Notes under the pieces: generated by a model
The model's database searches: none
The model's input: the letters and a program-made list of their open reading frames with translations, nothing else
Told to the model about the DNA's origin: nothing
Shown: one piece after another, positions 5,846 to 23,888 of the stretch
Layout: each line of letters begins with the position of its first letter
Numbering within the stretch: the first letter of the stretch is position 1
NCBI GenBank assembly: GCA_018650445.1
Contig: JABIFX010000163.1
Location: 1 to 32,455 of the forward strand
DNA from: Fidelibacterota bacterium
GTDB lineage: Bacteria; Fidelibacterota; UBA8477; JABMPR01
DNA length: 32,455 bases
Direction: 5' to 3'
Translations under genes and position numbers: made by a program

Positions 5846-5889
5846 ATTCAACATGAGATCATAGAATTTTCATTGGACTCATGTTGAAT
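5846..5889. repeat. Perfect 12-bp inverted repeat with 20-nt loop
   Basis: ATTCAACATGAG at 5846-5857 is the exact reverse complement of CTCATGTTGAAT at 5878-5889, separated by 20 bases. No T-run follows, so it is not a standard rho-independent terminator. It could be an operator, an mRNA hairpin or the remnant of a mobile element end. Confidence 0.55.
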
Positions 5890-5945
5890 ATCACCTAATT
5901 TATTTGACATTTTTAGTTTAGGACAAAACTAATTTATCCGTTTAA

Positions 5946-6179: not shown

Positions 6180-6307
6180 TATTGATGGCGGTGAATTTAT
6201 AAATACCGGAGTTCATGATTTAAGTTTTAAGTAAATGAAATTTGAGATAACAGCGTCTCATCCTTTAGAAACTGATTTGAGCCAATTTTAAGGAATATGG
6301 TATCTAG

Positions 6308-7360: not shown

Positions 7361-7363
7361 TTG

Positions 7364-8131: not shown

Positions 8132-8142
8132 AAAGAGAAAGC

Positions 8143-8826
8143 ATGCAATTATTAGATATACAGTCGCTTATGGACATTAATATCCGCACCGGGGATGTTC
8201 TTCTGAACTTACTTGTAGCTTTTTTATGCGGTTTGGTCATTGCGCAAACTTACAAAATGACTTTTGGTGGTGCTTCTTACTCGAAGAGTATTTCCAACTC
8301 TCTTATTGTGTTGGCAATGATAACGACAGTCGTCATTATCGTCATCGGTAATAATCTTGCTCGTGCCTTTGGGTTGGTAGGAGCTATGTCAATCATCCGT
8401 TTTCGAACGGCGGTTAAAGACCCTATGGATATCGTCTTTATCTTCTTTTCTCTGACTATAGGTTTGGCAGCGGGTGTGGGACTTGCTCAGATAGCCATCA
8501 TTGGTACCTTGTCCATAAGCGCTGTACTGCTCATCATGAGTAAGATCGGTTACGGCTCGCACAGGAGTGATGAAAATTTGCTGCAGTTCGCTTATAGTGG
8601 AGATCATAATGGAGGAGAACCGCCCTACATCAATATCATCCAATCCCATTGTAGATCTTACACCATGATTAATGTCAGATCATTGGGAAGCAGCCTACAG
8701 TATGAAATTTCCTATTATGTGACACTTAAACATGCCTCGAGGGCAAATGAGTTTGTCAAGGAACTTTCCGGTCTGGATGATTTGGACAAAATTAACTTAT
8801 ACTCTGATGAATCCCTTTCAAATTAG
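8143..8826 (+). CDS. DUF4956 family integral membrane protein
   Basis: The protein has 227 residues with hydrophobic segments at about 18-38, 52-70 and 94-132, and a soluble C-terminal domain from about 155 to 227. The family signature lies at 77-94 (GLVGAMSIIRFRTAVKDP), where RFRT and the KDP turn are typical of DUF4956. These proteins usually sit next to VTC-type polyphosphate polymerases, as here, and are thought to act as their membrane partner; no biochemical activity is assigned. The purine-rich AGAAAGAGAAAGC before the ATG serves as ribosome binding site. It ends the three-gene operon; no hairpin terminator is visible after the TAG. Confidence 0.85.
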   Translation: MQLLDIQSLMDINIRTGDVLLNLLVAFLCGLVIAQTYKMTFGGASYSKSISNSLIVLAMITTVVIIVIGNNLARAFGLVGAMSIIRFRTAVKDPMDIVFIFFSLTIGLAAGVGLAQIAIIGTLSISAVLLIMSKIGYGSHRSDENLLQFAYSGDHNGGEPPYINIIQSHCRSYTMINVRSLGSSLQYEISYYVTLKHASRANEFVKELSGLDDLDKINLYSDESLSN

Positions 8827-8936
8827 CCAAAGCTTACCTTGATCAACTCTGTAGCTACGCCACCAATGAGATAGCCATCAATTGGAATGCAGTATTCGTT
8901 TATGTCTTTGTAGCTCTGATTGCTGAAGGATAAACT
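8823..8936 (-). pseudogene. Possible relic of the triosephosphate isomerase C-terminus
   Basis: On the minus strand a 37-codon frame ends at a TAA (8823-8825) and reads YKDINEYCIPIDGYLIGGVA near its end. IDGYLIGG matches the IDGxLVGGASL loop near the C-terminus of triosephosphate isomerase, and the preceding NINEY-like helix fits the NxKEL segment. The YGGS phosphate loop that should precede it is not preserved. There is no start codon and the rest of the gene is absent. It overlaps the stop of the DUF4956 gene in antisense. The match rests on a short segment. Confidence 0.38.
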
Positions 8937-9359
8937 TTATAGAAGTCATGTAATGCGCTGTGTGTCAGGGAGATAGTAGAGACTGATAATCTTCCATAGC
9001 CGAGCCTATTCATTCTTATAAATGGTGGTTCAGGGTGAAACCGGGACTTCTATTAATTCCATAATCTCAAACGTTACTCGGGCTGCAAAATCAGTCATAA
9101 TTGGATGAGTCCCATATATATTTGATATGCAATCCATATCGATATGAGTAATATCCTCATGTGTTACCATGCTCATCATATAAATAAATACCCATGTAAC
9201 CGCATAATAGACAACAAGATAGGGATTTCGATGACATTCTTGGCATAAGCCTTGTGATAAGTGCTGCCATGACATTTACTCGAACCTCGTACTCGAATCA
9301 TAGACGTATTGATCAAATTATGTCTGATGGGAAGGTACACATTGACTATTGGGGATATT
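8827..9359. other. 533-bp gap between two plus-strand operons, containing minus-strand gene relics
   Basis: The gap holds the two minus-strand relics listed separately (TPI-like and RidA-like). No rho-independent terminator and no strong promoter were found. The only regulatory feature I can point to is GGGG at 9351-9354, just ahead of the chosen start of the next gene. Confidence 0.4.
9030..9275 (-). pseudogene. Possible relic of a RidA/YjgF-family protein
   Basis: An 81-codon minus-strand frame ends in SNIYGTHPIMTDFAARVTFE followed by IMELIEV. This parallels the C-terminal part of RidA (enamine/imine deaminase), where the order is MxDFxxMNEVYGxxF, PARVTFEVAxLP and ALVEIEV. The key arginine of the PAR motif is present as AAR, but the proline is lost and the final LPxGALVEI stretch is shortened. 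The N-terminal half does not look like RidA. The start ATG has no ribosome binding site. It is either a decayed gene or an unrelated small ORF. Confidence 0.4.
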
Positions 9360-10616
9360 ATGGATCGCATAATTGAAAAATCTAAATGGAAAACATATAG
9401 ACCCTATGCCTTCGTGACTATTGCAGTAATGATTATTGTTTCTGCAATGGTTTTGAGTGCCAAGGGCGGTGATACTTTAAAAATTGACAATCGGCGTATT
9501 GGGATCAGTACAGTTGAGAAAGGTGATTTTCAAGAATTTATAGCTTTTAGTGGATCTGTGGTTCCCATCAAAACCTATTACCTGGATGCCATTGAAGGTG
9601 GGCGAGTAGAATCAAGATATATAGAAGCAGGAACTTTTGTGGAAAAGGGTGACAAAATTATCAGTCTGGCAAATACCAACCTGCTCCTCGATATCATGTA
9701 CCGTGAGGCTGAATTATTCCAACAGAGCAATAATTTGCGGAATACCAAACTCGCCATGCAGCAAAACCGTCTAAATATTCAATCCCAAATATTGGATTTA
9801 GACTATCAAATACTGCAATCAAAGCGTGTCTTTGATCGGAATGCAAAACTTTCAGACAAAGCAATGATATCTAACGAAGCTTATGAGTCTAGCCGGGACG
9901 ATTATCAATATTTAATCAAAAAACGCATGCTGACACTTCAGTCATTCGAGCAGGACTCCATCTATCGTGAAGTTCAGGTAGAACAGTTAGAGAGCGGCCT
10001 ACAACGTATGCAGGACAACATGGGAATCGTAAGGCAAAATCTGGATAACCTTGTAATCACCGCACCCGTATCGGGTCAACTGACGTCTCTCAATGCTGAA
10101 ATAGGCGAGGCGAAAGTCAGGGGGGAACGACTGGGACAGATTGATATTCTTGATGGATTTAAGATAATTGCTCCCGTGGACGAACACTTTATTACTCGAG
10201 TACAACTCAATCAACCTGCTCATTTTAGTATTGGCTCCAAAGCGTACAGCGTTCATCTAAACAAGATATACCCAGAGGTTGTCAACGGTCAGTTTCGAAT
10301 AGAACTCGGATTTGATGAAGTTGAGCCAGAGGACATCCGTCGTGGTCAAACCATACATATGCGCCTGGAGCTAGGTAACTCCTCACAAGCCATCTTATTG
10401 AGACGAGGAGGCTTTTATCAGGAAACGGGTGGACAATGGGTCTACGTTCTGGATGAGGGTGGTGCTAGCGCCAGTAAGCGAAAAGTCAAGCTCGGAAGAC
10501 AAAACCAAGATGTGTATGAAGTCCTGGAAGGACTTGAACCCGGCGATAAGGTTATTACCAGTAGCTACAGACAATTTGGTGATTACGAGCAATTATTTTT
10601 TAAAAGCGAATCATAA
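9360..10616 (+). CDS. MacA-like periplasmic adaptor of an ABC exporter
   Basis: This is a 418-residue membrane fusion protein. I place the start at the ATG at 9360, after TTGGGGATATT, because residues that follow (MDRIIEKSKWKTYRPYAF) give a basic N-terminus before a transmembrane segment at about 16-35. An in-frame TTG at 9309 would add 17 residues. The half-lipoyl strands flank a long coiled-coil hairpin (residues about 105-225), with the second lipoyl motif at VITAPVSGQLTSL. The C-terminal domain ends in VLEGLEPGDKVI, typical of MacA/HlyD_D23 proteins. It precedes the ATPase gene by 24 bases and the permease, forming a MacAB-type set that probably works with an outer-membrane channel encoded elsewhere. 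Confidence 0.9.
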   Translation: MDRIIEKSKWKTYRPYAFVTIAVMIIVSAMVLSAKGGDTLKIDNRRIGISTVEKGDFQEFIAFSGSVVPIKTYYLDAIEGGRVESRYIEAGTFVEKGDKIISLANTNLLLDIMYREAELFQQSNNLRNTKLAMQQNRLNIQSQILDLDYQILQSKRVFDRNAKLSDKAMISNEAYESSRDDYQYLIKKRMLTLQSFEQDSIYREVQVEQLESGLQRMQDNMGIVRQNLDNLVITAPVSGQLTSLNAEIGEAKVRGERLGQIDILDGFKIIAPVDEHFITRVQLNQPAHFSIGSKAYSVHLNKIYPEVVNGQFRIELGFDEVEPEDIRRGQTIHMRLELGNSSQAILLRRGGFYQETGGQWVYVLDEGGASASKRKVKLGRQNQDVYEVLEGLEPGDKVITSSYRQFGDYEQLFFKSES

Positions 10617-11363: not shown

Positions 11364-13793
11364 ATGTGGTTAAGCTATATAAAAGTGGCATTCAGATCCC
11401 TGATCAAGCAACGACTGTATGCCTTTATTAATATTGTGGGATTGGCTATTGGTGTAACCACCTGTATCCTGATCTTAATGTTTGTCGATTACGAAAAAGG
11501 TTTTGATCGATTCCACACCAATGCAGATAATATTTACCGTTTAAACCTGGAAGGTAAATTGGGAGACAATGAGTTTAGAATGACCAATTCAGCCGCTCCT
11601 GCTGGACCTACCATGTTGGAAGAATATCCCGAGGTTATTAGTTATACTCGTATTAGGAGTACCGGTTTTCCTGTTCTTCGTTATGAGGATAAGGTTTTCT
11701 CTGAAGAGAGATGGTTTCAGGCTGATTCTACAATCTTTGATGTCTTTACAATTCCTATGGTGTTAGGTGATCCTAAGACGGCCCTAACTCAACCATTTAC
11801 TGTTGTAATTACTGAGCGTATGGCCAAGAAATATTTTGGCGATGTAGATCCCCTTGGCAAAGTATTGAATTCTGACAATGCCTCAGATTTTACGGTGACA
11901 GGGGTTGTTAAGGAACTACCGGACAATTCACATTGGCATTTCGACTTTTTGGGATCGATGGCTACTTATAGAGATGAGCGTAATGCAAATTGGCTAAGTA
12001 ATAATTTCCAGACTTATTTACGCCTTAGCGATGGGGCAAGTGCTGCAGATTTTGAGGCAAAATTCCCAGATCTGATTCGGAAGTATGTGGGTCCTGAAGT
12101 ACAACAATTCCTGGGTGTATCATTTGACCAATTGGAAGAAAGAGGTGATGCATATGCCTATTTTCTAACGCCACTCACTGATATTCATTTGTATTCTCAT
12201 TTGCTAGGTGAATTTGAAGTGAATGGTGATGGTCAAACCGTTACGATTTTTGCTTACATAGCAATATTCATCCTTCTTTTAGCGTGTATCAATTATATGA
12301 ATTTGTCTACTGCCAGGTCCATGAGTCGTGCACGTGAAATTGGTATTCGTAAAACTTTGGGTGGTAATCGTCGACAAATTATCGTCCAATTCCTGGCCGA
12401 ATCCATTTTTGTGACCTTTATAGCCTTCTCATTAGCTGTATTGCTAGTTCAAATCATTTTGCCCTGGTTTGCACAACTGATCGATACGCCTTTAAGACTA
12501 ACTCTGGCTGATATCCCATTTATTCTACTCTGGGTCATACCAGTAGGCTTATTGGCGGGCAGCTACCCAGCTTTTCTATTGTCTTCATTTAATCCAGTTA
12601 AGGTATTAAAGGGAAGCAATGTATCAGGTAAAGGTGGAAATTGGCTTCGCAATGGACTCGTAATATTTCAATTCTCCGTATCTGTAACTCTGCTCATTTC
12701 TACAATGATCATCCGTGATCAGCTGAATTTTATTCAGACCAAGGATTTGGGTCTAAACCCTGAAAACCTGCTGATTGTAAAAAAGACTGATGATATAGGT
12801 CGAACAATTCAGGCTTTTAAATCCAGCATGAGAGATGATCCAGGAGCTATCCTGGTAAGTAATAGCACAGCTATTCCTGGCAACGAGGATGGATTGAATG
12901 GGAATGCTTCTACAATGGTTGTGGATGGCGTTGAAGAGACACGACTGGTAGCCGGCTTCCTCGTCGACTATGACTATGCAGAGGCTTATGAATTAAGCAT
13001 GGCAGACGGCCGGTTCTTCTCCAGAGAACGAGGGACTGACACCAATGGAGTTATTATTAACGAGGCGGCTGCTCGAGCCTTTGGTGTGGAGGATCCTGTT
13101 GGACAAGATCTCATAACATTCTTCCGTCGCAATCCAGTTCCCATCGAGATTATCGGTGTGGTGAAGGATTACCATTTTGAATCCCCTCAGAAAGAGATTC
13201 GTCCCATGGCAATGTTTCTATTGGGAGATGGAACCGCACAATTCAGACCCAATTGGGGAAAATTCGTAACTGTTAAGTATGATCCAAACCGTTTGGATGG
13301 GACCATGGCTCATCTAGAAACGACCTGGAAGAATTTTGCTGGAGAACAAGCCTTGGAATATATTCACTTCGATGAACTATATGGTGAATTGTATCGAACT
13401 GAACAACAGTCAGCAGATATCGTATTGATGTTTGCTGGATTGGCGATATTTATTGCCAGTCTTGGTTTACTTGGATTAGCCTCATTTAACGCACAGAGGC
13501 GTACCAAGGAAATTGGTATCCGCAAGGTATTGGGCGCTTCTGTTAGTGGTGTTTTGATGCTGCTTTCAAAGGATACGCTGAAACTTATGTTGATCTCAGT
13601 CGCTATAGCTGTCCCCGTTGCTTACTATGCCATGAGTGATTGGCTAAGGAACTATGCCTATCGGATTGATATCAGTGTGATGGTGTTCCTTGGAGCATCT
13701 CTGATTGCCCTGATGGTAGCTGTGATCACGGTTGCCTGGCAATCCTATCAGGCAGCTGTAGCTGATCCAGTTAAATCTCTGCGCTACGAGTAA
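11364..13793 (+). CDS. FtsX/MacB-like ABC transporter permease, duplicated form
   Basis: The protein has 809 residues and two tandem MacB units. A transmembrane helix at about 20-42 is followed by a periplasmic MacB_PCD domain. A three-helix FtsX bundle follows at about 290-415, with the conserved cytoplasmic segment AREIGIRKTLGGNRRQI. A second membrane entry (GLVIFQFSVSVTLLIS) occurs near 431, then a second periplasmic domain, then the last bundle from about 686 with KEIGIRKVLGAS. The chain ends DPVKSLRYE, a typical terminus for Bacteroidota-type permeases of this class. An AAAAAGGAG site precedes the ATG, 33 bases after the ATPase gene. The substrate is not evident. Confidence 0.93.
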   Translation: MWLSYIKVAFRSLIKQRLYAFINIVGLAIGVTTCILILMFVDYEKGFDRFHTNADNIYRLNLEGKLGDNEFRMTNSAAPAGPTMLEEYPEVISYTRIRSTGFPVLRYEDKVFSEERWFQADSTIFDVFTIPMVLGDPKTALTQPFTVVITERMAKKYFGDVDPLGKVLNSDNASDFTVTGVVKELPDNSHWHFDFLGSMATYRDERNANWLSNNFQTYLRLSDGASAADFEAKFPDLIRKYVGPEVQQFLGVSFDQLEERGDAYAYFLTPLTDIHLYSHLLGEFEVNGDGQTVTIFAYIAIFILLLACINYMNLSTARSMSRAREIGIRKTLGGNRRQIIVQFLAESIFVTFIAFSLAVLLVQIILPWFAQLIDTPLRLTLADIPFILLWVIPVGLLAGSYPAFLLSSFNPVKVLKGSNVSGKGGNWLRNGLVIFQFSVSVTLLISTMIIRDQLNFIQTKDLGLNPENLLIVKKTDDIGRTIQAFKSSMRDDPGAILVSNSTAIPGNEDGLNGNASTMVVDGVEETRLVAGFLVDYDYAEAYELSMADGRFFSRERGTDTNGVIINEAAARAFGVEDPVGQDLITFFRRNPVPIEIIGVVKDYHFESPQKEIRPMAMFLLGDGTAQFRPNWGKFVTVKYDPNRLDGTMAHLETTWKNFAGEQALEYIHFDELYGELYRTEQQSADIVLMFAGLAIFIASLGLLGLASFNAQRRTKEIGIRKVLGASVSGVLMLLSKDTLKLMLISVAIAVPVAYYAMSDWLRNYAYRIDISVMVFLGASLIALMVAVITVAWQSYQAAVADPVKSLRYE

Positions 13794-13817
13794 AACATTA
13801 ACTAAAGAATCCTACGT

Positions 13818-13855
13818 AAGCCCCTCATCATGTATGTGATGGGGGGCTTTTTTAT
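13818..13855 (+). terminator. Rho-independent terminator of the MacAB-like operon
   Basis: A 13-bp stem pairs 13818-13830 (AAGCCCCTCATCA) with 13837-13849 (TGATGGGGGGCTT), with one G-U wobble and a six-base loop, followed by a T-run. It lies 25 bases after the permease stop and includes the ATG nominally opening the next ORF. Confidence 0.9.
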
Positions 13856-14927
13856 TACTTGCGTTTTTGTACATCTCTTGTATAAGTCATCTAGTTGCTT
13901 AGATTTGCACCACTGTTTAGTAAAGCAGAGAAAACTAAAATTACACATTTCTGTGGCTTTATTAACTCGTCTTCCTGAGATGGAGAAATTGAACTACATC
14001 AATATGAATGGTATTTATGGTGATGTAGATCTCAATACCCTAGTCCAGGCATATGACGCTGGTTTAATCTTACAATACCTGGTGGATATGATAGATCTCA
14101 CCGAAGCGCAGCAACTGGTAGGTAATGTGAGTTTGGACGAAAGTCTATCTGCACTGGATGCCTCAATAATTCTTCAATATATGGTTCATCAAATAGATTC
14201 ACTACCCTATGATACGGCTCAGGGTGAATTGTTGGCAGCAGGTGGTCTGGGAATAGGTGGGGAATATTTCACACCTGGAACATCTACGATTATTCCTGTG
14301 CTTCTACAAGAAGGTCTCAACATTTACTCATTTGAAGGTGAAATCGATATGAATATCGATCACTTTACCCTCGATAGTATCGGGTGGAGCGCCAATGTAG
14401 ATAGTTACGCAGTAGAGGCGATGGTCGATAGCAACAATCATATCGTGTTTGCCGGTGCAAGTTCGCACGGTTATGACTTCTCCGGTTCATTAATGCAACT
14501 CTATGGGACCGTAGAAATGGGTTTCGAAGGCGATTCACTTGTCATCTCTGTTGATAAATTAATGCTCAATGAAAATCTGGAGTTTATCGATTATCAGATC
14601 GGTGTACTAATCAACACAGTATCACTGGATCAATTTGCACTGATTCCTGAGCATTTTTCAGTGAAACCAAACTACCCGAATCCCTTCAATCCAGTTACAC
14701 ATCTTGATTATGGGATACCGGCATCCGGAGATATACAAATCCGAATATATGATGTGACAGGTCGGATTGTGCAGGAGCTCAAGTTCATTGATCAAGCTGC
14801 TGGATGGTATACATATACCTGGAATGGAACCAACTTCGCTGGCGAAGCTGTCAGTTCGGGTTTATACCTTTGCCAGATTCAATCAGGTCGTGAATTTGAG
14901 GTGGAGAAAATGTTGTTCATCAAGTAA
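13830..14927 (+). CDS. Dockerin-like repeat protein with T9SS sorting tail, start uncertain
   Basis: The body is clearly a secreted protein. A dockerin-type Ca-binding pair lies at about 64-130 (GDVDLNTLVQAYDAGLILQY and a second copy with SALDASIILQYMVHQID), a middle beta-rich region follows, and a T9SS tail starts at YPNPFNPVTHLDYGIP and ends SSGLYLCQIQ...EKMLFIK. The longest frame begins at an ATG at 13830 that sits inside the upstream terminator hairpin and has no ribosome binding site. Its first residues are hydrophobic (GGFFITCVFVHLLY) but not a good signal peptide. The next ATG at 13979 also lacks a Shine-Dalgarno sequence and any signal peptide. In related proteins this dockerin-tail unit comes at the end of a larger protein, so the gene may be the 3' part of one. 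Confidence 0.7.
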   Translation: MYVMGGFFITCVFVHLLYKSSSCLDLHHCLVKQRKLKLHISVALLTRLPEMEKLNYINMNGIYGDVDLNTLVQAYDAGLILQYLVDMIDLTEAQQLVGNVSLDESLSALDASIILQYMVHQIDSLPYDTAQGELLAAGGLGIGGEYFTPGTSTIIPVLLQEGLNIYSFEGEIDMNIDHFTLDSIGWSANVDSYAVEAMVDSNNHIVFAGASSHGYDFSGSLMQLYGTVEMGFEGDSLVISVDKLMLNENLEFIDYQIGVLINTVSLDQFALIPEHFSVKPNYPNPFNPVTHLDYGIPASGDIQIRIYDVTGRIVQELKFIDQAAGWYTYTWNGTNFAGEAVSSGLYLCQIQSGREFEVEKMLFIK

Positions 14928-14946
14928 CAGATATCGAAAGAACCAC

Positions 14947-14990
14947 AATAGTCTAGGCCATTCTGTTTAATAAGGGTGGCCTAGGCTATT
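14947..14990. terminator. Bidirectional hairpin terminator between convergent genes
   Basis: AATAGTCTAGGCCA (14947-14960) pairs with TGGCCTAGGCTATT (14977-14990) over 14 bp with one wobble, around a 16-nt loop. T-rich sequence follows on the plus strand, and A-rich sequence on the left arm gives a U-run on the minus strand. It ends both the dockerin/T9SS gene and the electron-transfer operon. Confidence 0.78.
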
Positions 14991-15009
14991 TTAGGAGATT
15001 AGATAAATA

Positions 15010-16626
15010 TTACAGGTGCCTGGAGGCACTAAGACTAAAGCGGTAGAGTAATTCCCCATTTTCATGTTCAAAGCGTGTGCGAAGTCTAAGTCGCTGAAGC
15101 CCAGGAACCTTGGCAGAAAAAGAGATTTCAGGTAAGTGACGGGTTCTAAAACTGGATTCCCCCAGAATACGATAGAGAAAAACTTCATCATACAAATCTA
15201 CATCCAACCAGGGGAGGATGTTTCTACCTACAGATGCATACACACGTCCACCCTCACTAAGATAGGAGAACATGGCCATCCCACCGGCATTCAGTGAAAG
15301 AGACTGCGATGTGAAGCTACGGTGACTGAGCGAGACTCCATATATTTGGATTTGCCGGCTTGTTCCATCTCCTCGGAAACTGGCTTGCCCTGTAATGGTA
15401 ATCCTCGAGCCCAACATGAGAGTCAAATTGGTGTTGAAGGTGTGTCGTGCAGCTTTCTCATATTCCGTTTCAGCGGTATCGAGCAAATCAACTACGTTCT
15501 CTCTATAACTGTAGCGTGATGTACTGGTAAGGAAGCGCCAGGGTCTCCAATTTACTGAAGCACGAAAGCGCGTAAGAGAGACCCCGCTCTGAAATTGAGA
15601 TTGATCCAGCAAATCGAGATCAAATTCACTGTACCCCCTTATTCTAAGACCTGAACTCAATTTAGCGGTGGATCCCAACAGGAGATAATTTCTGGAAAAT
15701 GCTCCTGATTCCGTTTCTCCGATGACGCCAAACTGCACCTTTCCCCATTTATATCTTTCTTCATCAAGAAGACCAAATTTATTGCGCTGAACGTGGTCTT
15801 GAATGCCATTGATCTCTGACTTGAGACCGGCGGCAACGGCCAGAACCCTTCGATCTGATCTCCAGGTAACACCCAGACCATCTATAGTACCTAGCACAGA
15901 GAACTGAGGGTGATACATTCGACCCAGTAAATAACTGAATCGACTTCCAGGATTATCATAACTCAACATGATTGAGTAAATACTGGTTTGGGAACTAGAA
16001 TCTCTGGAGGAACGATTGCTGCGTAAATAGGTACTCATATCCAGATGCCGAATTCCCAGATCCAGAACTTTGAATTGACCAGAGATGGAGCCCCTGGATT
16101 CCCTGACCCCACTGCTGTCACCTCCTCGATCAGAAAAGCGCGTTGAAACATAACCAGTAAACGTAGGGGCAAACCGATCTGAATCCAGACTCATGTTACT
16201 GGGTGTTCGTGGAGCGTATGAACTGCTGTCCAGGAAGACCTGAACTTCTGGCTTTGATATAGAAGGGCTCTCCAGTCCAGCGGTAGGAGCGGGCTGAATA
16301 GGTGTTGGTAATGCGATTTCAATCTGAATTTTATTCCCAATTTCCCAGCTCATATCCACAGGTGCTTTTGCCACTATGGAAGAAGAAGCTCCGCTGGTCT
16401 GTGCAACTTGTGCAATACCTAATAATTCACTGTTTTGAAATACATAAACACGATCACCAGCTTGTATACCTGCTTTCTTCCCGAGGTCAATATATGCTTG
16501 ATCTCTGCTGATATAGGTGATAGAACCCGTAAGCAGTTCTTGCCCAAAGCCAGAACTCGTGAGTAGCAACATCACAGTTAAAAATTGCAAAATATTTTTA
16601 TCGAATTGTCGCATCACTCTCCGCAT
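15010..16626 (-). CDS. Predicted outer-membrane beta-barrel protein with N-terminal SH3/FlgT-C-like domain
   Basis: I place the start at the ATG at 16626, one base after the stop of the upstream cytochrome gene and ten bases after AGAGGA; earlier in-frame ATGs at 16665 and 16635 lie inside that gene. The 538-residue product begins with a signal peptide (FLTVMLLLTSSGFG, cleavage near residue 28). Residues 30-85 form a small beta domain with GSITYISRDQAYIDLGKKAG and IQAGDRVYVF, resembling the FlgT C-terminal fold. A Pro/Ser-rich linker follows. From about residue 160 to the end there are many alternating amphipathic strands rich in Tyr, Arg and Ser, typical of a porin-like barrel. It is the last gene of the multiheme operon, so it could be the outer-membrane sleeve or anchor for the cytochromes. 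No homology to MtrB/PioB is recognisable by eye. Confidence 0.72.
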   Translation of the reverse strand: MRRVMRQFDKNILQFLTVMLLLTSSGFGQELLTGSITYISRDQAYIDLGKKAGIQAGDRVYVFQNSELLGIAQVAQTSGASSSIVAKAPVDMSWEIGNKIQIEIALPTPIQPAPTAGLESPSISKPEVQVFLDSSSYAPRTPSNMSLDSDRFAPTFTGYVSTRFSDRGGDSSGVRESRGSISGQFKVLDLGIRHLDMSTYLRSNRSSRDSSSQTSIYSIMLSYDNPGSRFSYLLGRMYHPQFSVLGTIDGLGVTWRSDRRVLAVAAGLKSEINGIQDHVQRNKFGLLDEERYKWGKVQFGVIGETESGAFSRNYLLLGSTAKLSSGLRIRGYSEFDLDLLDQSQFQSGVSLTRFRASVNWRPWRFLTSTSRYSYRENVVDLLDTAETEYEKAARHTFNTNLTLMLGSRITITGQASFRGDGTSRQIQIYGVSLSHRSFTSQSLSLNAGGMAMFSYLSEGGRVYASVGRNILPWLDVDLYDEVFLYRILGESSFRTRHLPEISFSAKVPGLQRLRLRTRFEHENGELLYRFSLSASRHL

Positions 16627-16627
16627 G

Positions 16628-17449
16628 TTATTCATTTCCTCTGGGATGACAGAAGTAACAGTCATTTGAGGTCACTCCAGTGCGTGGGTATGTTAACCCA
16701 TTGCGTTGCTCACAATCATTGCCATCACAATGCTCATCATTCATATCATCTTCATCGTGACACCCCGATCCAAAGCAGGTAAATATCTGATACTCGCCAG
16801 CTTGCTCATGGCAATCCGAGCAGGCGTCCCATTCACCACGATGTTCTCCACTATAAATGGGGAAGAAGACATCATGGTTGATGGCCAGTATTTGATCCCA
16901 GCGCGTCGGTGCATGACAAGTTGAACAATCTGCTCGAGGAGCAAGTTCAACATGAGCCGGTAAGTCAAGATCGAAGTCTGATTCATGACACTCCTGACAA
17001 TCCAAAGAGGGCACCATTCCAGGCGTTGTATGACAAAAATAACAACTCTGGGACTGGTGGGCAGCCAATAGTGGAAACAGGGTCTCATTGTGCCGACGAT
17101 AGGCCATAGCGGGATCCCAGTTCTGAGGGCTATGGCAAGTCTCGCAATCATCACCCCAATAGTTCTGGTGGATATCCTGATGACAATTCACACAATCCAG
17201 GCCCTTAGCGGAGAAGCTATGGAATTCATCGATTGTATTTCCTGAATGACATTGGGTGCAAGTCAGATCAGCGTGCTTGTAAAGCAGTCTGAAATCTGTG
17301 GCTTGATTGTGATCAAAACGTGGTGTCTCAGATAGGGGAAACCAGGATCTGGATAGATGACAATCCAGGCAGGAGCGATCTTCCACCATTTGAGAGTGAG
17401 CATAGAAGGGTAGCAGAACTAACAATAATTTGAGACTAATTAGTTTCAT
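16628..17449 (-). CDS. Exported multiheme c-type cytochrome, about 10 haem sites
   Basis: The 273-residue protein starts with a signal peptide (MKLISLKLLLVLLPFYAHSQ). It has nine CXXCH motifs (CLDCH, CTQCH, CVNCH, CETCH, CYFCH, CQECH, CSTCH, CSDCH, CYFCH) and one CX4CH motif (CFGSGCH at residue 225; bases 16757-16777). Histidines between motifs, such as FDH and HRG, are likely distal ligands, giving bis-His haems as in c3/c7-type cytochromes. The last 85 residues closely parallel the C-terminus of the 33-haem protein encoded just upstream. The two genes overlap by 14 bases, implying coupled translation. It would act in the periplasm or at the outer membrane as a short electron carrier or terminal connector. 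Confidence 0.93.
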   Translation of the reverse strand: MKLISLKLLLVLLPFYAHSQMVEDRSCLDCHLSRSWFPLSETPRFDHNQATDFRLLYKHADLTCTQCHSGNTIDEFHSFSAKGLDCVNCHQDIHQNYWGDDCETCHSPQNWDPAMAYRRHNETLFPLLAAHQSQSCYFCHTTPGMVPSLDCQECHESDFDLDLPAHVELAPRADCSTCHAPTRWDQILAINHDVFFPIYSGEHRGEWDACSDCHEQAGEYQIFTCFGSGCHDEDDMNDEHCDGNDCEQRNGLTYPRTGVTSNDCYFCHPRGNE

Positions 17450-20081
17450 CAGGTTTCTTCTCAGTTGGCTGTGGTAGCGTTCTCAACTTGAAAAAATTCA
17501 GAAGATCACCATCGCAATCATCTTCATCGCCAGTGGGATGGCAGGTAAAGCAGTCTGTGGAAGTTACACCCGTTGCTGGATAAGTATGACCATCGCAGCT
17601 CTCACAATCAGCTCCCTCACAGTGCTCATCATTCATTTCGGACACGTTATGACACCCCCCGCCAAAGCATGTGAAAACAGCAAAATCATTGGCATCTACA
17701 TGGCACTGCGAACAATCATTCCATTCATTGCGATGTTGACCACTGTAAATGGGGAAATATTGTCCATCATGATTAAAGGTCGCAGGCTCCCAGGCAGTCA
17801 TGGCATGGCAGATTTCGCATTCCAGAGGAAAAGAAGCAGAGGCATGATTTGGATCTGTTGCAGAATTATAATCCGGTAAGTGACAGCTGCCATCAGCACA
17901 GGTCCTGACCTCAGCAATAATTTGCCAGGGGGAGTGGCAGCTTTGACATGCAGTATTCGCATGTGCACCCTCAAGAGGATATCCAGTATTAAGCTCGTTA
18001 TGTTGGAATGAAGAGGGCTCCCAGGCTGTGGTGGTGTGACAATCCACGCAATTCTGGGAAAATCCCATTGCTTCGTGGGGAGGATTGCTCGATGCTGAGT
18101 AGCTGTCTTGATGACAAGAAGCAGAGGCACAGGTTCTGATCTCGCTTGGAGGATTATAGGACTCATGACAGCTACTGCAATTGATGTTCAAGTGAGCACC
18201 ATCGCTGAGAAAACCTGTTGCTTCAACATCATGTACAAAACTACTTGGTGACCATGCGTCCTGGGAATGGCAGGTCTCACAATCTGTTGGGTAGGCCAAC
18301 TCAGTATGGGGCGGATCGGTAGTCGCTGTATACTGCACCATATGACAGGTCACACAGCTGATTGATGTGGCTGCATGATCAAAGATGGCAGGTTCCCATA
18401 CATCTTGAGAGTGGCATGTTTCGCAAAGATTCTGAGGATATCCATAAGCATCATGATCCGGTTCACTAGTACTCTCGAAATTGCTCTGATGGCAGGAGAA
18501 GCAATCCGAAGAGAGTCCCGTCCATTGTGCCGTCTCATGACAGGTAAAACAATTTTCTGGAAGAAGAGCGAGATGAGCACCCTGTATAGCAAAACCTGTC
18601 AGATCGGCATCATGGTCGAATGATGAAGGTTTCCAGCTCACCTGACCATGGCAAGTCAGACAATCCTGACTGAATCCATATTGGGCATGATCAGGACTGG
18701 GAGTATTGGTTGTTGAGGAGTAATCAGGGAGGTGGCAACCCTGGCAATCCGTCGGCAAATCATAGCCGTTTGCATGGCATGTTGTGCATTCAATTTCAGT
18801 ATGAGCCCCCTGTAGTGGAAAGGCAGTCTGGGTATGATCAATTTCTTCTGAAATCCAATTCTCTGTCGTATGGCATACCTCGCAAGTCGTTGGCATATCG
18901 CTGATTACATGATTAGGTTCAAGCGATTCATCATAATTTGATTGATGACAATCTACGCATTCAGAGGGTTGCGCTGAGTATGGAGCAACCGTATGACAGG
19001 TCTCGCAGCTCGGTTCAATGTGAGCACCTGTCAGGGGATACTCAGAATCTATATCATGATCCCATATACTTGGCAGCCAGGCTATAACAGTGTGGCAATC
19101 TTCACACGCCTCACCAAATTCTGCATCCTCATGTGGTGGTGCTTCACTGGATTCCCATTCTGTCTGATGACACCCATTGCATAGCTCTGGTGTTTCATCA
19201 TAACTCTGTTCAGAATGACAATCAGAACAAATCGCCAACTCATGTGCGCCTTCGAGTAGAAATCCTGTTTGATCATGAAGGAAGCTAGAGTTCCAGGTAA
19301 AACTGTCATGGCAGGATTGACAATCCAGTGGATAGCCTTCTGCCAGATGGGGAGGTTCAGTACTGGCATCAAAATCATCCATATGGCAAGCCACACATTC
19401 TACGGGTGTGTTATCGGCACTTTGCATATGACAACTCGCACAACTCGCTGTATTGTGCATTCCCAGTAAATAGTAACCTGTATCATTGTGATTAAATGTA
19501 GAATTTGTCCAATGGTTGCTCTGGGGGGCATGACAGGACTCGCAATTGTTTCCAAGATTTAGAATTTGGTGAGATGGTTCATCACTTTCGTTATAGTCTG
19601 CGGAATGGCAACCAGCACAATCCAGGGGCAAGGTGGCTCCTGAACCAGGATTGCTAAGGTGACAACCCTCACAGCTCAAACTTCGATGCGGTCCCTGGAG
19701 CGGAAAATTAGTCAGATCATGGTTTTGCTGTTGAGTCGATAGAGTCCATGTATCAGGACTATGGCAGCGCTCACAATCCTGTCCCCATTGATCATTGTGA
19801 ATATCTTCGTGACAGGTCACGCAATCAGAGGATACCTGGCCAAAATTGTGCTTCTCAGCTGGTGTAGAGCCCGTATGGCATAATCCGCAATCTATTTCCG
19901 CGTGGGTTCCCTTTAACTCATATCCTGTCATGATATGATCAAAATTCTGACCGACATCAGAGCTCCAATCACCACCAGCATGACAAACTTCGCAGGTTAA
20001 ATCTGTTTCAATCTCCGAATCATCCTGGGCAAAGGTAAGATTGCTTATGAGGAAGAGGACAAGGGCAAGTAGCAATTTCAT
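17436..20081 (-). CDS. Giant multiheme c-type cytochrome with 33 candidate haem sites
   Basis: The start is the ATG at 20081, which overlaps the upstream stop as ATGA and begins a clear signal peptide (MKLLLALVLFLISNLTFAQ); an in-frame ATG at 20117 lies inside the upstream gene. The 881-residue protein has 30 CXXCH motifs and three CX4CH motifs (residues about 651, 728 and 805). The chain is built from eleven tandem units of roughly 60-80 residues. Each opens with FxHxxTGFxLxGAH and contains three haem motifs, then WxPSxFxHD leads to the next unit; unit 8 is short and has only two. One haem motif precedes unit 1. The family is cytochrome c3/c7-like. Such a chain could form a continuous haem wire across or beyond the periplasm. 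The C-terminal 30 residues (after CHPTGDEDDCDG) are a polar tail without haem motifs. Confidence 0.93.
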   Translation of the reverse strand: MKLLLALVLFLISNLTFAQDDSEIETDLTCEVCHAGGDWSSDVGQNFDHIMTGYELKGTHAEIDCGLCHTGSTPAEKHNFGQVSSDCVTCHEDIHNDQWGQDCERCHSPDTWTLSTQQQNHDLTNFPLQGPHRSLSCEGCHLSNPGSGATLPLDCAGCHSADYNESDEPSHQILNLGNNCESCHAPQSNHWTNSTFNHNDTGYYLLGMHNTASCASCHMQSADNTPVECVACHMDDFDASTEPPHLAEGYPLDCQSCHDSFTWNSSFLHDQTGFLLEGAHELAICSDCHSEQSYDETPELCNGCHQTEWESSEAPPHEDAEFGEACEDCHTVIAWLPSIWDHDIDSEYPLTGAHIEPSCETCHTVAPYSAQPSECVDCHQSNYDESLEPNHVISDMPTTCEVCHTTENWISEEIDHTQTAFPLQGAHTEIECTTCHANGYDLPTDCQGCHLPDYSSTTNTPSPDHAQYGFSQDCLTCHGQVSWKPSSFDHDADLTGFAIQGAHLALLPENCFTCHETAQWTGLSSDCFSCHQSNFESTSEPDHDAYGYPQNLCETCHSQDVWEPAIFDHAATSISCVTCHMVQYTATTDPPHTELAYPTDCETCHSQDAWSPSSFVHDVEATGFLSDGAHLNINCSSCHESYNPPSEIRTCASASCHQDSYSASSNPPHEAMGFSQNCVDCHTTTAWEPSSFQHNELNTGYPLEGAHANTACQSCHSPWQIIAEVRTCADGSCHLPDYNSATDPNHASASFPLECEICHAMTAWEPATFNHDGQYFPIYSGQHRNEWNDCSQCHVDANDFAVFTCFGGGCHNVSEMNDEHCEGADCESCDGHTYPATGVTSTDCFTCHPTGDEDDCDGDLLNFFKLRTLPQPTEKKPDETN

Positions 20082-21715
20082 CGCTTGAAATCCCCAAAGC
20101 TGTGACAGTCCTGACACTTATGAGGTATGGGTTTAAAGCGGATGGTATTCAGCTGCAGCTCAAATTTATGACATTGGCCACATGCCAGATCTTGATGTTG
20201 GCCATCCAGCGGGAACGCTGTCAGACTGTCATGATCAAATTCTGGAATTTGCCAGTTATGAGTAGAATGACAATCCTCACAAATTTCATCCTCGAATTGC
20301 TTCGAATGGACATCACGATGGCATTCATTACAACTGTAGTCAGTGTCCTCGTACTGGGTAATTTCTACATTGCTTTTGTGACAGGCAGAACAATCCAGGT
20401 CTTCGTGTTTCCCGGTGAGAGGGAAGAAGGTAGAGTTATGATCGAAGGATAAATCAACCCAATCCGACGTCTTATGACAATTCTCACACCAGGTCCCATT
20501 CTGTTGATAGCGAGAGAACTGGTCTCCATGAATGGTGGTATGACAAGACTGACAGCTCAGGGGCTCCCACCGATATACTGGTTCATCATTTTGCTCATGG
20601 CAAAAGATGCAAGGTTGAGCAAGATGGGCTCCGTCGATGGCAAATCGAGTATTCCGATGTTCAATCACACCAAATAATGGAGGAAAGAAGCCTCGGATAC
20701 TATGGCATTGATCACAAGGATTATCACGATCTGGTTTCTTAAAGATGCCATCATGGTTATCTGCATGACAATCAGAACATTGATCAAAGCTTGAAGCCAG
20801 CTTAAACCGATCTTTCCTGGTGTGGCACAATTCGCAGTCGATGCTGACATGTTTGCCAACCAGTGGGTACCGTGTCACCTGGTGATTAAATGCTCCAGCC
20901 ACATCTGCCTGTTTAAACGTGCTTTCAGTATGACATTTGAGACAATTTGAGCCAAATGATCCTTTGTGCTCATCGCGATGACAATTGGTACAGAGATTAT
21001 ATTCGAGACCAGTAAATTGTTGCGCATGGAACTCACCTACCACGTCCTGGGATGCTGTGTGGCATTTTTCACATTCAAGTTGTTTATGAGCTCCACGGAG
21101 AGGGAAATTGGTCTCAAAATCGTGATCGTAGTCATTTCTCGCATCGGTCCAATTATTTTCATTGTGGCAATCGTCACAGGTCTGGTCTACGAATTCGTTA
21201 GCATGTACTTCCACATGACAATTAGCGCATTCAGTTCCCAAACCCAGGAATGTGGATGAGAGGACATCACTTGCTTTTTGGGATTTGGCATATTCCAGGA
21301 TATCATCTGATACGATGAATTCACTTTGATGGCATTCATTACAATTCAGCTTGAGGTGCTTCCCCTCGAGCTCATAACCCGTCTGTAAATGATCGAAATC
21401 CTTTTGAGAGGGCTCCCAGTGGATCATTTCAAAATTCCTATCCATGTGATCAGAATGACAGGCAAGACACTCGTTTTCCTCGAGATTACCATGGAAGCCG
21501 AGTTCATCTGCAATTCTGGTTTGGATTGGTGTATGACATTCCAGGCATTTTGGACTTAAATCTTTGCTACCCCAGGTATGGCAAGTTAGACAATTGGTGA
21601 ATCCTGAAAGATGTGCATGAGGCTCTGCCAATGGTCCAGGGCTCAGTTGAGCCTTCAGGGTCAGAGGGTAAATAAGGAGGAAAAATAATCCGAAAGTGGA
21701 AAGCTTCAAGTTCAT
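20078..21715 (-). CDS. Exported multiheme c-type cytochrome with 20 haem sites
   Basis: The 545-residue protein has a signal peptide (MNLKLSTFGLFFLLIYPLTLKAQ) and 20 CXXCH motifs, from CLTCH near residue 42 to CQDCH near the C-terminus. The repeating pattern FDHxxTxFPLxGxHxxLxCxxCH followed by CxxCHxDxHxxxF and CxxCH is that of tandem three-haem c3/c7-like modules. The ATG overlaps the stop of the oxidoreductase gene (ATGA), and its own stop overlaps the start of the 33-haem gene in the same way. As the first cytochrome after the inner-membrane pair, it is the natural candidate to receive electrons from, or pass them to, the cytochrome b-like protein. No CX4CH motifs occur here, unlike in the two downstream cytochromes. 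Confidence 0.94.
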   Translation of the reverse strand: MNLKLSTFGLFFLLIYPLTLKAQLSPGPLAEPHAHLSGFTNCLTCHTWGSKDLSPKCLECHTPIQTRIADELGFHGNLEENECLACHSDHMDRNFEMIHWEPSQKDFDHLQTGYELEGKHLKLNCNECHQSEFIVSDDILEYAKSQKASDVLSSTFLGLGTECANCHVEVHANEFVDQTCDDCHNENNWTDARNDYDHDFETNFPLRGAHKQLECEKCHTASQDVVGEFHAQQFTGLEYNLCTNCHRDEHKGSFGSNCLKCHTESTFKQADVAGAFNHQVTRYPLVGKHVSIDCELCHTRKDRFKLASSFDQCSDCHADNHDGIFKKPDRDNPCDQCHSIRGFFPPLFGVIEHRNTRFAIDGAHLAQPCIFCHEQNDEPVYRWEPLSCQSCHTTIHGDQFSRYQQNGTWCENCHKTSDWVDLSFDHNSTFFPLTGKHEDLDCSACHKSNVEITQYEDTDYSCNECHRDVHSKQFEDEICEDCHSTHNWQIPEFDHDSLTAFPLDGQHQDLACGQCHKFELQLNTIRFKPIPHKCQDCHSFGDFKR

Positions 21716-23025
21716 GACAGGGTTGAGGTCCCGAATTGGATGCCGATTGAACTCATCAGTTTGAAGGGTGGGATTCCTCCAGCAAAGATGAATACATAAT
21801 CATTTTTAACCTGTTTTTTTTGATGAGCATGATTGATAATTACATGTTGCTCATGGATTGAATCCACGGTGGACTCATACATGATATTAATCCATCCGTT
21901 TTTGACTGCTTTGGCGACCTGCTCATCGTTTCTGGTCTTAATCCTGGCAAAACCATTCTTGCGATATGATAGGGTAACAATATTGCCTATTTGCTGACCC
22001 AGCCCCACGGCAGCTTCTACTGCAGAATCGCCACCACCGACTACCAGGATATGTTTATTCTGATAGGTTTCTGCATCCATCAATTTATAGGCGACCTTAC
22101 TTAAATCTTCTCCTGGAATTTCAAGCTTCCGGGGTGTACCTCTGCGACCTAGAGCGAGAACAACATATTCGCTGGTGAATTCATCTGCACTGGTGGTAAT
22201 TCTATACCCATCGCCATTTTTTTCAATGGCCTGCAATTGATGACCACTACGAAAATCAGGAGAATGACTTTCAAATATTTCGTCCCATATCTCCAGCAGC
22301 TCTTCCTTTGAGTATTCAGAGTTGCTCATTTCACCATAACCCGGCATCTCTATGGGCTGTACCATGACCAGTTTCCTTCTGGGGTATTGAAGGATCGTTC
22401 CACCTGGTTCACTTTGGTCAAGTAGAACAACAGGTAGCCCCATTTCCATAAGAGAAATGGTGCATGAAAGCCCTGCAGGTCCAGCACCAATTACCACGAT
22501 GGGTTGAGAGGGGGTTGAGCCATTCAACTTTGATTGTATGGATTTAGCTACCCTAGCTCCCTGATTCACAGCATTTCTAATCAAGGCTAGACCACCGAGT
22601 TCCCCAATGATGTAAATGTTCTCAAAATTACTTTCAAGTTCTGAACTGAGTTGAGGAATATCCTCTCTGCTGGATATATCGCCCAGGCCTACCTCAATGC
22701 CACCCACGGGGCAACTCTCCATGCAGACCTCGTGTCCTACACATTTGCTCCCATTGATGAGAACGGCTTTACCACCTACCAGTCCAAGTACCTCACCTTC
22801 CGGGCAGACTTTTGTGCAAATACCACAACCAATACATCTGGATAAATCGATGATTGGGTGTTGCATGAGTGCTTTATTTGCCCCAATTCGTGTTGCCTCA
22901 TTCAGCTTTTCTACGGTCTGATTCTGTTTACGCTTCCACCTGATGAGATAGGGCACAGTGAAAGCAAAAATGAGCACAGCTCCCAATAACCAGGATAATA
23001 CCGATTCGTTGTTTAGAATATCCAT
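21712..23025 (-). CDS. Membrane-anchored ferredoxin-FAD-NAD(P) oxidoreductase
   Basis: The 437-residue protein has an N-terminal transmembrane segment at about 10-28 followed by KRKQN, suggesting a cytoplasmic catalytic part. A ferredoxin domain follows: the first cluster site is CIGCGICTKVCP (C64, C67, C70, C74); the second is CVGHEVCMESCP, where the expected second Cys is His98 between C95 and C101. The rest is a thioredoxin-reductase-like flavoprotein with an FAD loop GAGPAG (170-175) and an NAD(P) loop VVGGGDSAVEAA (from 318). The redox-active CxxC of thioredoxin reductase is absent. It would exchange electrons between NAD(P)H and the membrane via FAD and Fe-S clusters. It overlaps the cytochrome b-like gene by 13 bases and the 20-haem gene by 4, so the pair probably forms one inner-membrane module. 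Confidence 0.88.
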   Translation of the reverse strand: MDILNNESVLSWLLGAVLIFAFTVPYLIRWKRKQNQTVEKLNEATRIGANKALMQHPIIDLSRCIGCGICTKVCPEGEVLGLVGGKAVLINGSKCVGHEVCMESCPVGGIEVGLGDISSREDIPQLSSELESNFENIYIIGELGGLALIRNAVNQGARVAKSIQSKLNGSTPSQPIVVIGAGPAGLSCTISLMEMGLPVVLLDQSEPGGTILQYPRRKLVMVQPIEMPGYGEMSNSEYSKEELLEIWDEIFESHSPDFRSGHQLQAIEKNGDGYRITTSADEFTSEYVVLALGRRGTPRKLEIPGEDLSKVAYKLMDAETYQNKHILVVGGGDSAVEAAVGLGQQIGNIVTLSYRKNGFARIKTRNDEQVAKAVKNGWINIMYESTVDSIHEQHVIINHAHQKKQVKNDYVFIFAGGIPPFKLMSSIGIQFGTSTLS

Positions 23026-23888
23026 GTGAATCCAAAACTTAAGGTGAGAATGATATGCAGGGTTAAAACGATAAAGATCGCATAGGCGAAAGGTTTATGA
23101 ATGACATGCCACCAGTGAAATACTTTGCTTACGGCATCAAGTACGATGACACGCTGACTCATAATGAGCTGTTTCTCAACGGTCGCTTTGAAGAAAACCA
23201 GGTTCTGTTTGCTCACTCCGTATCGAACCTCAAAGTCTTTGAGAATCTGATTTAGTTGATAGCGACGTTTTATATCAAACACTGCAAGGTGATAAAGTGA
23301 AACCAGTGTTCCTGCACCACTTAATTGGGGGGTCAAGCCTTGTAGCTTATTGATATCATCAGGTAAAATCCCGAATTCCATCTGGAGTGAACGCAGTTTC
23401 GAAGCCTTCTCAGTATTAATTTGTTTCATGCTCATTTCGTGACCATCCCGGCGACGTGGGATGTGACCATATAAATACCTCCCCACGATGCCGCTCAGCA
23501 TGACAGCAATCATGGCCCAATACATCACTCCAATGAGACCCTCGAATTTGAAAGTTGCATGGTATCCAGCCAGGAGGGGAGCCACAATTCCAAACCACAT
23601 GTGATACTTGAGCCACTGGCTCAGGCGACCAACACCCCGTAAACGGTTCCAGCGCTTGCGAATAATATATAACCAGAGTAAAAACATAAAAAATGCGGCG
23701 AGGAAGCCAACACCATGCCCATATAGACCTGAAGGACCATATAAACCGTCTAGTTCTTTTAACAGATAGCGTTCTTCAACAGGGGTATTCAAATAGCTTG
23801 AGCTCTGGACAGAATAGAGCACCAGGAATGTGATGGTAAGCAGGGATAAGAGAATGATCACATAATTATGCAATTTTGCTTTAATCAA
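23013..23888 (-). CDS. Cytochrome b-like integral membrane protein
   Basis: The 291-residue protein has about five hydrophobic segments (near 8-28, 57-77, 93-112, 118-138 and 265-289). Histidines sit in membrane helices as expected for b-type haem ligation: H58 in YGHGVGF, YHMW and GYHATF in the middle, and a C-terminal HWWHVIHKPF followed by TLHIIL. A soluble helical loop of about 110 residues separates the last helix from the others. The start is TTG at 23888, with AGGAAG about 12 bases upstream. It heads the six-gene operon. I infer that it passes electrons across the inner membrane between the overlapping flavoprotein and the periplasmic cytochromes. The exact family is not certain; haem b is inferred from histidine placement. 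Confidence 0.75.
   Translation of the reverse strand: MIKAKLHNYVIILLSLLTITFLVLYSVQSSSYLNTPVEERYLLKELDGLYGPSGLYGHGVGFLAAFFMFLLWLYIIRKRWNRLRGVGRLSQWLKYHMWFGIVAPLLAGYHATFKFEGLIGVMYWAMIAVMLSGIVGRYLYGHIPRRRDGHEMSMKQINTEKASKLRSLQMEFGILPDDINKLQGLTPQLSGAGTLVSLYHLAVFDIKRRYQLNQILKDFEVRYGVSKQNLVFFKATVEKQLIMSQRVIVLDAVSKVFHWWHVIHKPFAYAIFIVLTLHIILTLSFGFTWIF

Follow-up and report, generated by a model that had tools for sequence, protein, structure and literature searches.

A six-gene multihaem cytochrome operon in a Fidelibacterota genome resembles the PCC3 conduits and carries a putative NAD(P)H module at its inner end

The gene cluster PCC3, first described in iron oxidisers, combines a porin, large extracellular and periplasmic multihaem cytochromes (MHCs) and an inner-membrane protein (IMP) of ~300 amino acids (aa), which is recognised by two WX3HX13H motifs and an SGXXG motif and has five transmembrane helices, with the haem motifs on helices 3 and 5 and SGXXG on helix 4 (He et al., 2017, PMC5566968). 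The periplasmic MHC has a median of 21 haems, the system is described as having four components (PMC12442390, PMC8788666, PMC10734462), and its function has been called unverified (PMC12442390). He et al. also mention “another redox protein” next to the genes of related IMPs, and report that the PCC4 cluster includes redox and Fe-S genes (PMC5566968). Here we describe an operon of six genes at positions 15010–23888 of a 32,455-nucleotide stretch of DNA from a Fidelibacterota bacterium (contig JABIFX010000163.1; the whole stretch is referred to as the window), in which the PCC3 parts are accompanied by a flavoprotein. We consider it fairly likely that this operon encodes a trans-envelope NAD(P)H:extracellular-acceptor oxidoreductase, that is, an FCB-group variant of PCC3 whose inner end is an NAD(P)H module.

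The operon consists of the following open reading frames (ORFs), all on one strand:

CytB, 23013..23888, minus strand: 291 aa, TTG start; di-haem b-type inner-membrane protein of the PCC3 IMP type
FDX, 21712..23025, minus strand: 437 aa; membrane-anchored ferredoxin plus TrxR/YpdA-type FAD/NAD(P) oxidoreductase
MhcA, 20078..21715, minus strand: exported 20-haem cytochrome of the PCC3 periplasmic-MHC type
MhcB, 17436..20081, minus strand: exported 33-haem cytochrome of ~74-aa tri-haem modules, presumed extracellular
MhcC, 16628..17449, minus strand: exported 10-haem cytochrome
BAR, 15010..16626, minus strand: 538 aa; predicted outer-membrane beta-barrel with an N-terminal signal helix and a small beta domain

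Consecutive genes overlap by 13, 4, 4 and 14 bases, and a one-base gap precedes the last, with MhcB starting at the ATG at 20081 and BAR at the ATG at 16626. The span and these overlaps agree with an earlier, sequence-only reading of the window, which had reported six linked genes on one strand with about 63 haem sites. Its haem count was likewise borne out, as we found 20 CX2CH motifs in MhcA, 30 CX2CH and 3 CX4CH motifs (33) in MhcB, and 9 CX2CH and 1 CX4CH motif (10) in MhcC, giving 63 in total, while composition-keeping shuffles produced mean CX2CH counts below 0.4 per protein (0.23 for MhcA, 0.39 for MhcB, here read from an earlier GTG start and so 893 aa long, and 0.13 for MhcC). Promoter-like and terminator-like sites were no commoner than expected by chance (16 versus 17.6 expected, and 1 versus 6.4 expected, respectively).

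CytB carries the PCC3 IMP signature within its 291 aa, with WX3HX13H motifs at W92/H96/H110 and W260/H264/H278 and the SGXXG motif at 132 (SGIVG), and the motif histidines were invariant in an alignment of 16 sequences. A simple hydropathy scan gave four hydrophobic segments, with the segment of the first haem motif falling under the threshold, and the match to Pfam Ni_hydr_CYTB (21.7) was under its cut-off of 30.1. FDX has one hydrophobic segment at its N-terminus (residues 6–30), followed by a 4Fe-4S (Fer4) and a Pyr_redox_3 domain in Pfam, and a sequence search of solved structures returned TrxR, YpdA and ferredoxin-NADP reductases. Its first cluster motif comprises Cys 64/67/70/74 and its second Cys 95/101/105, with His98 replacing the second Cys; this His was present in 15 of 16 rows of one FDX alignment (A1) and in 14 of 14 rows of another (A6), both of which include the window sequence. 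Ferredoxins with such altered cluster motifs exist, some of them with [3Fe-4S] clusters. A single Cys lies beyond the two cluster motifs. The best NCBIfam match of FDX, bacillithiol reductase YpdA, scored 155.5 against a cut-off of 339.9, and thioredoxin reductase scored 84.2 against 343.45, so that membership of either family was rejected. Among the matches listed, FDX and CytB domains formed one polypeptide in 15 of 74 FDX ORFs, 13 of which came from Planctomycetota, Phycisphaerales or Phycisphaeraceae and two of which were given without a phylum. An electron step from FDX to CytB is therefore supported by fusion as well as by the co-occurrence of the two genes, as described below.

The three cytochromes are densely filled with haem motifs, at 27.3 (MhcA), 26.7 (MhcB) and 27.3 (MhcC) residues per haem. 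MhcA (as Cytochrome_C7) and MhcB scored over the cut-offs of Pfam c7/c3 families, and MhcC, at 24.1, fell just under its cut-off of 24.8. In its 20 haems and its N-terminal pattern MhcA, which we presume to be periplasmic, corresponds to the large periplasmic MHC of PCC3: an N-terminal S-P-G and a later His were found in 37 of 37 aligned sequences, and the MHCs adjoining proteobacterial IMP genes show a similar succession of PG, HA or HK, and CxxCH. In these 37 MhcA sequences, one of which is that of the window, 20 of the 25 non-motif His residues were conserved at 92% or more, against 57% or less for the remaining five, which leaves one conserved candidate second ligand per haem. MhcB, a putative extracellular cytochrome, stands at the gene position that the extracellular MHC has in PCC3, and 27 of its 30 three-haem steps are 71–82 residues long, matching a tandem tri-haem (c7-like) module. 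MhcC resembles the C-terminal region of MhcB (MhcC alignment, n = 16), and the translations have a C-terminal stretch in common. When solved structures were searched by sequence, MhcA gave one marginal match, to NrfH (E 0.00099), and MhcB gave none.

That the last gene encodes a barrel, as the sequence-only reading had predicted, is supported by the AlphaFold2 model of BAR (pLDDT 80, pTM 0.61), which has ~22 strands in residues 155–537. With 50 structural matches shown, Foldseek placed FimD/PapC pilus ushers first, then chitoporin, OprD/Occ-type porins and BtuB, so that model and matches together point to BAR as the porin of the cluster. No Pfam or NCBIfam match was found at E 0.01. Using hhalign, we compared BAR with ten candidate proteobacterial PCC3 porins, which had been chosen for their length and position; one of them at least (L102) lacks a barrel-like end. 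The comparison scored 96.7% over 385 columns at 12% identity, versus at most 0.9% for five neighbouring gene families, controls that are not themselves proven barrels; this suggests, at the level of sequence profiles, that BAR is homologous to the PCC3 porins. Planctomycete barrels (n = 10) scored 99.9% against BAR, a comparison that is partly circular as they had been picked by the BAR profile. Among the matches listed, a BAR-family match was present in 32 of 35 non-proteobacterial loci with at least two large multihaem ORFs, and in one of 12 such proteobacterial loci.

The linkage of the six genes, which the sequence-only reading had put forward as a test of its proposal, is conserved in the phylum. 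We searched 100 genomes from the lineage and phylum, the host's own among them, and found FDX in 24 (E ≤ 1e-40) and CytB in the same 24 (alignment A2, E ≤ 1e-15); all six genes stood in order in 17 of these (the window and 16 other loci), with extra ORFs inserted in five of the 16. Five of the 24 loci are cut by contig ends (L032, L034, L044, L047 and L049), and in L048 a 12-haem gene occupies the place of MhcC. The nearest relatives were Candidatus Neomarinimicrobiota metagenome-assembled genomes (MAGs), and the closest FDX among the matches listed, from MAG BS150m, was 95% identical. Tree distances of CytB, FDX, MhcA and BAR correlated with one another (Pearson 0.90–0.95, Spearman 0.76–0.90; 32 loci with all four), a correlation that does not part shared species history from co-evolution. 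Six genomes of the same genus lacked the operon, and the flanking yicC was found in five of them. The operon was missing beside conserved flanks in one (G017, L140); in another (G001), an 83-residue BAR-like fragment stands at its place (L141:5022-5258), a remnant that suggests operon loss in this genome; and the three other yicC stretches covered little of the flank.

Several variants of the locus were also seen. In two more distant Neomarinimicrobiota loci (L045 and L046), an FNR-type NAD-binding flavoprotein gene follows FDX, with a Haem_bd protein gene also present in L046. A TPR/zinc-ribbon gene lies between FDX and MhcA in L041 (9918-10604), and ORFs of similar length are found there in L040 and L042. 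In a locus from the same genus (L036:12943-15455), three additional multihaem cytochrome genes with 4, 8 and 12 motifs lie near BAR.

A profile search of genome contigs with the FDX alignment extended the family further, and we examined 80 loci, the best of a longer list, which include Neomarinimicrobiota, Calditrichota, Zixibacteria, Ignavibacteria, Bacteroidota, Acidobacteria, Gemmatimonadetes, Planctomycetota, Nitrospirae and Proteobacteria (among them Gallionella). In 60 of these loci the stretch covered contains a gene or domain of the CytB type; the ORFs come from a simple caller and may hide genes, such as FDX in L068, L075, L076, L083, L086 and L128. Three layouts recurred among the matches listed: CytB-MhcA-MhcB-(MhcC)-BAR-FDX in many FCB loci, FDX/CytB-MhcA-BAR-MhcB in planctomycete loci and, often, FDX divergent from CytB-MHC-MHC-large ORF in proteobacterial loci. 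The CytB-MHC-MHC-large ORF arrangement is that of PCC3 as described by He et al. (2017, PMC5566968).

Haem numbers varied between these loci. Within the phylum, MhcB homologues uncut by contig ends had 23–48 haems, MhcA mostly 20 (23 or 17 in three loci) and MhcC mostly 10 (9 in two loci). Among the matches listed, the haem number of MhcA was 2 modulo 3 (17, 20, 23, 26 or 29) in 57 of 61 intact non-proteobacterial ORFs, the four exceptions having 19, 21, 40 and 57; this tally took the best MhcA-labelled ORF per locus, left out the window and four ORFs cut by contig ends, and has at least two contigs entered twice (L028/L050 and L041/L051). Proteobacterial MhcA-type ORFs had 21 or 24 haems in five of five cases, and 21, 24 or 27 in nine of nine in another selection, which left out 21 loci without its N-terminal pattern. 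The series published for the periplasmic MHC of Gallionellaceae PCC3 is 21, 24 and 27 haems (PMC10734462), and insertion or deletion of CxxCH domains has been reported for the larger MHC of such clusters (PMC7399161). Judging from these counts, the predicted periplasmic wire (MhcA) appears to vary in length by whole tri-haem modules. Single ORFs with 67 (L121, Bacteroidetes B8_G4, 4513-9540) and 57 (L095, Deltaproteobacteria, 12746-16663) haem motifs were seen in related clusters.

We also examined how often FDX accompanies PCC3 in the family to which a Gallionella MAG (G100, L125) belongs: of 100 genomes, 41 had the IMP, 43 had FDX and 40 had both. Thirty-six of 44 FDX genes lay within 1.5 kb of an IMP gene, all on the opposite strand. 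One single-contig genome (G151) has clusters with 17 + 21 and 24 + 28 CX2CH motifs, and because these counts equal the published numbers for the PCC3 clusters of S. lithotrophicus ES-1 (17/21 and 24/28; PMC8788666), we took it to be this strain. Here FDX adjoins the first cluster's large ORF (the porin) and lies 5.6 kb away from the IMP of that cluster; we found no paper naming the ES-1 locus tag expected for FDX beside PCC3 copy 1.

The host genome (3.9 Mb, 86.75% complete, 4.56% contaminated) contains cytochrome c assembly genes at two PF01578 places; the sequence-only reading had suggested looking for maturation genes elsewhere in the genome. It also encodes haem-copper oxidases (two full matches, plus one in a third frame that is split), a complex I 49-kDa-type gene and a gene pair which we take to be ACIII-like. 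A NapC/NirT-type gene and, after it, a cytochrome c552 gene of the NrfA type (L155:648-2566) probably serve nitrite reduction to ammonium. RuBisCO gave no match in this 87% complete genome, other CO2-fixation pathways not having been searched, and its gene content suggests a host that lives as a respiring heterotroph. The same genome has a second multihaem cluster (L151, G000:C107:34000-52320), part of which recurs in similar form on C162 (L153). This cluster includes a gene of the cytochrome b561 type, several MHCs, among them ones with 7, 18 and 12 motifs, an NHL-repeat gene and a gene of 549 aa that has no Pfam match (a possible barrel), so the six-gene conduit is not the host's sole candidate.

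If the operon works as we propose, FDX would lie on the cytoplasmic face and pass electrons from NAD(P)H to its FAD, on to the [4Fe-4S] cluster and to the second cluster with the Cys-to-His swap (possibly [3Fe-4S]), from which they would reach the two b haems of CytB and cross the inner membrane. MhcA, with 20 haems, would bridge the periplasm to BAR, and MhcB (33 haems, of adjustable length) and MhcC (10 haems) would carry the electrons on, through the barrel or past it, to an acceptor outside the cell. The flow is probably outward, a direction we prefer because it is downhill in redox potential and runs with the membrane potential, and because the host is an apparent respiring heterotroph. 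In NADPH oxidases, electrons likewise move downhill and with the membrane potential. The inner-to-outer-membrane haem wire supposed by the sequence-only reading fits the synteny, the barrel model, the dense cytochromes, the distal His residues of MhcA and the b-type membrane cytochrome; what that reading overlooked, however, was the PCC3 precedent.

A number of observations weigh against this assignment. The MhcA model was weak (pTM 0.40), and a fold search of the PDB with it gave no match; the N-termini of MhcB and MhcC are only Sec-like, and we infer the cellular location of all six proteins. The second Cys of FDX cluster I is absent in 2 of 16 (A1) and 4 of 14 (A6) rows, and CytB may contain a quinone site. 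BAR's likeness to the PCC3 porins is remote at 12% identity, with controls that are not proven barrels, and the planctomycete barrels scored only 5.9% against the candidate PCC3 porins. Twenty of the 80 best FDX loci had no CytB in the stretch covered, and in the Neomarinimicrobiota locus L045, on a 5-kb contig, CytB and FDX are followed by the FNR-type gene and other ORFs with no cytochrome. In the Gallionella family, 18 of 54 IMP matches had no FDX within 1.5 kb, so that FDX stood beside 36 of 54; several genomes combine two or three IMP genes with a single FDX, in one genome the IMP occurs with no FDX, and in three others FDX occurs with no IMP, two of the latter cases being at the ends of contigs. 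The second PCC3 cluster of G151 has no adjoining FDX, and another FDX in this genome stands alone.

The 18 IMP matches without a nearby FDX speak for a quinone-linked PCC3 as first proposed, in which CytB would exchange electrons with the quinone pool and FDX would be a helper or side branch, as does the original model of He et al. (PMC5566968), and one PCC3 inner-membrane gene was significantly up when Sideroxydans sp. CL21 could oxidise iron (PMC12442390). We nevertheless regard this account as unlikely, given that FDX–CytB fusions exist and that FDX accompanies the IMP in all 24 genomes of the phylum that carry it and in 40 of 41 of the Gallionella family. The conduit could also run inward, with an external donor (a reduced metal, a mineral or a partner cell) feeding CytB and FDX making NAD(P)H. 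In iron oxidisers, PCC3 has been modelled as taking electrons from a donor outside the cell and delivering them to the quinone pool (PMC5566968). TrxR-type ferredoxin-NADP reductases are able to run towards NADPH. With Fe(II) or Mn(II) as donor, however, transfer to NADP+ would oppose the redox potential, and it would also oppose the membrane potential, which is negative inside; the host genome gave no RuBisCO match, as said above, and both ES-1 PCC3 clusters were down-regulated on Fe(II) (PMC8788666), all of which makes inward flow rather improbable in our view. Neither the down-regulation in ES-1 nor the up-regulation in CL21 proves the direction in the window operon.

Since the protein locations are predicted, the cytochromes might instead form a periplasmic electron store (a capacitor) or an intracellular respiratory module without extracellular exchange, and a capacitor role has been suggested for such cytochromes (PMC10734462, PMC7399161). 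The 22-strand model of BAR and the BAR-family matches in 32 of 35 of the non-proteobacterial loci argue against this, and we think there is little chance that it is correct. It seems less probable still, to the point of being hardly credible, that FDX works in redox stress as a YpdA-like thiol/disulfide reductase and is only a passenger in the operon: YpdA is its best NCBIfam match, but the score is under the cut-off, the FAD domain has no CxxC pair because only one Cys lies outside the cluster motifs, and FDX has a fused ferredoxin and a membrane anchor and is fused to CytB elsewhere.

A trans-envelope NAD(P)H:extracellular-acceptor oxidoreductase, the reading we prefer, would matter beyond this locus. 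PCC3 is widespread and its function unproven, and the quinone pool has hitherto been proposed as its inner end. A conserved NAD(P)H module, which in Planctomycetota is fused to the cytochrome b of PCC3 type, offers a concrete, testable alternative to the quinone pool and would explain why PCC3 need not go together with iron oxidation. We therefore raise, tentatively and with somewhat more doubt than confidence, the possibility that PCC3 overall, in at least Neomarinimicrobiota, Calditrichota, Zixibacteria, Ignavibacteria, Planctomycetota and Gallionella relatives, is an NAD(P)H:extracellular oxidoreductase and not primarily a quinone-linked iron-oxidation conduit; it would then be a bacterial electron exporter resembling NADPH oxidase, with a haem-wire output lengthened by whole tri-haem modules. 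With such an NAD(P)H module, uncultured marine Neomarinimicrobiota would have a redox-disposal route that bypasses quinones, and a periplasmic wire changing by three haems would be a natural ruler of the periplasm.

Elsewhere in the window, a VTC-domain gene adjoins a DUF4956 gene and a 350-aa ORF without a Pfam match (6308-8826), and two proteins, at 256-1401 (Malectin) and 13830-14927 (FlgD_ig), have type IX secretion C-terminal sorting domains.

Among known systems, the PCC3 of Sideroxydans, Gallionella and Leptothrix is alike in the IMP signature (PMC5566968; PMC10734462), in a large MHC with a like N-terminal pattern adjoining the IMP gene, and in having a long MHC of varying haem number, a large barrel and clustered genes. 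The window operon differs from it in having an NAD(P)/FAD/Fe-S protein within the operon and a second, short MHC (MhcC), in a first wire of 20 haems versus 21, 24 or 27 in Gallionellaceae, in the N-domain of its barrel, and in its host, which belongs to an FCB-group phylum. PCC4 shares the IMP motif layout and has further redox or Fe-S genes in the cluster, but has three periplasmic MHCs and no extracellular one (PMC5566968).

The Mtr, Mto and Pio systems (MtrCAB, MtoAB, PioAB) are alike in combining a trans-outer-membrane barrel with multihaem cytochromes. DmsE/MtrA membership was rejected (TIGR03508: 40.9, 33.9 and 26.7 bits against a cut-off of 192.2), and the lack of a Pfam or NCBIfam match for BAR extends to the MtrB/PioB family, for which the libraries may not hold a model. 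Mtr-type systems receive quinol input via CymA-type proteins. Hmc and Ext membership were also rejected (HmcA 29.0 against 400; ExtN/ExtO 21.4 and 22.2 against 200). GSU1996-type tandem c7 dodecahaem cytochromes are polymers of ~70-aa tri-haem modules and in this general description resemble MhcA and MhcB, which are longer and stand in a conduit operon. NADPH oxidases and ferric reductases have a cytoplasmic NAD(P)H-FAD module that feeds a di-haem b membrane protein. The window operon differs from these in a TrxR-type flavodomain with Fe-S clusters, in place of an FNR-type one, and in its multihaem wire as output; the likeness of the IMP to them has been noted (PMC5566968).

In a whole-word search, the words ferredoxin, flavoprotein, FAD and pyridine were absent from the main text of He et al. 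(2017), the supplements to which may list a flavoprotein, and the available text of the PCC3 literature yielded no mention of one, although it may be reported elsewhere. A full-text literature search combining Marinimicrobia with cytochrome or porin and extracellular-electron terms found no paper. The sequence-only reading had held that known systems do not combine these parts; this stands for the flavoprotein module, which is unusual and does not appear in the PCC3 text, but not for the rest, which resembles PCC3 and includes its IMP motifs, in CytB. We conclude that the operon is not a categorically new system but an FCB-group variant of PCC3 with a flavoprotein partner, in which the FDX flavoprotein module looks to be the new part.

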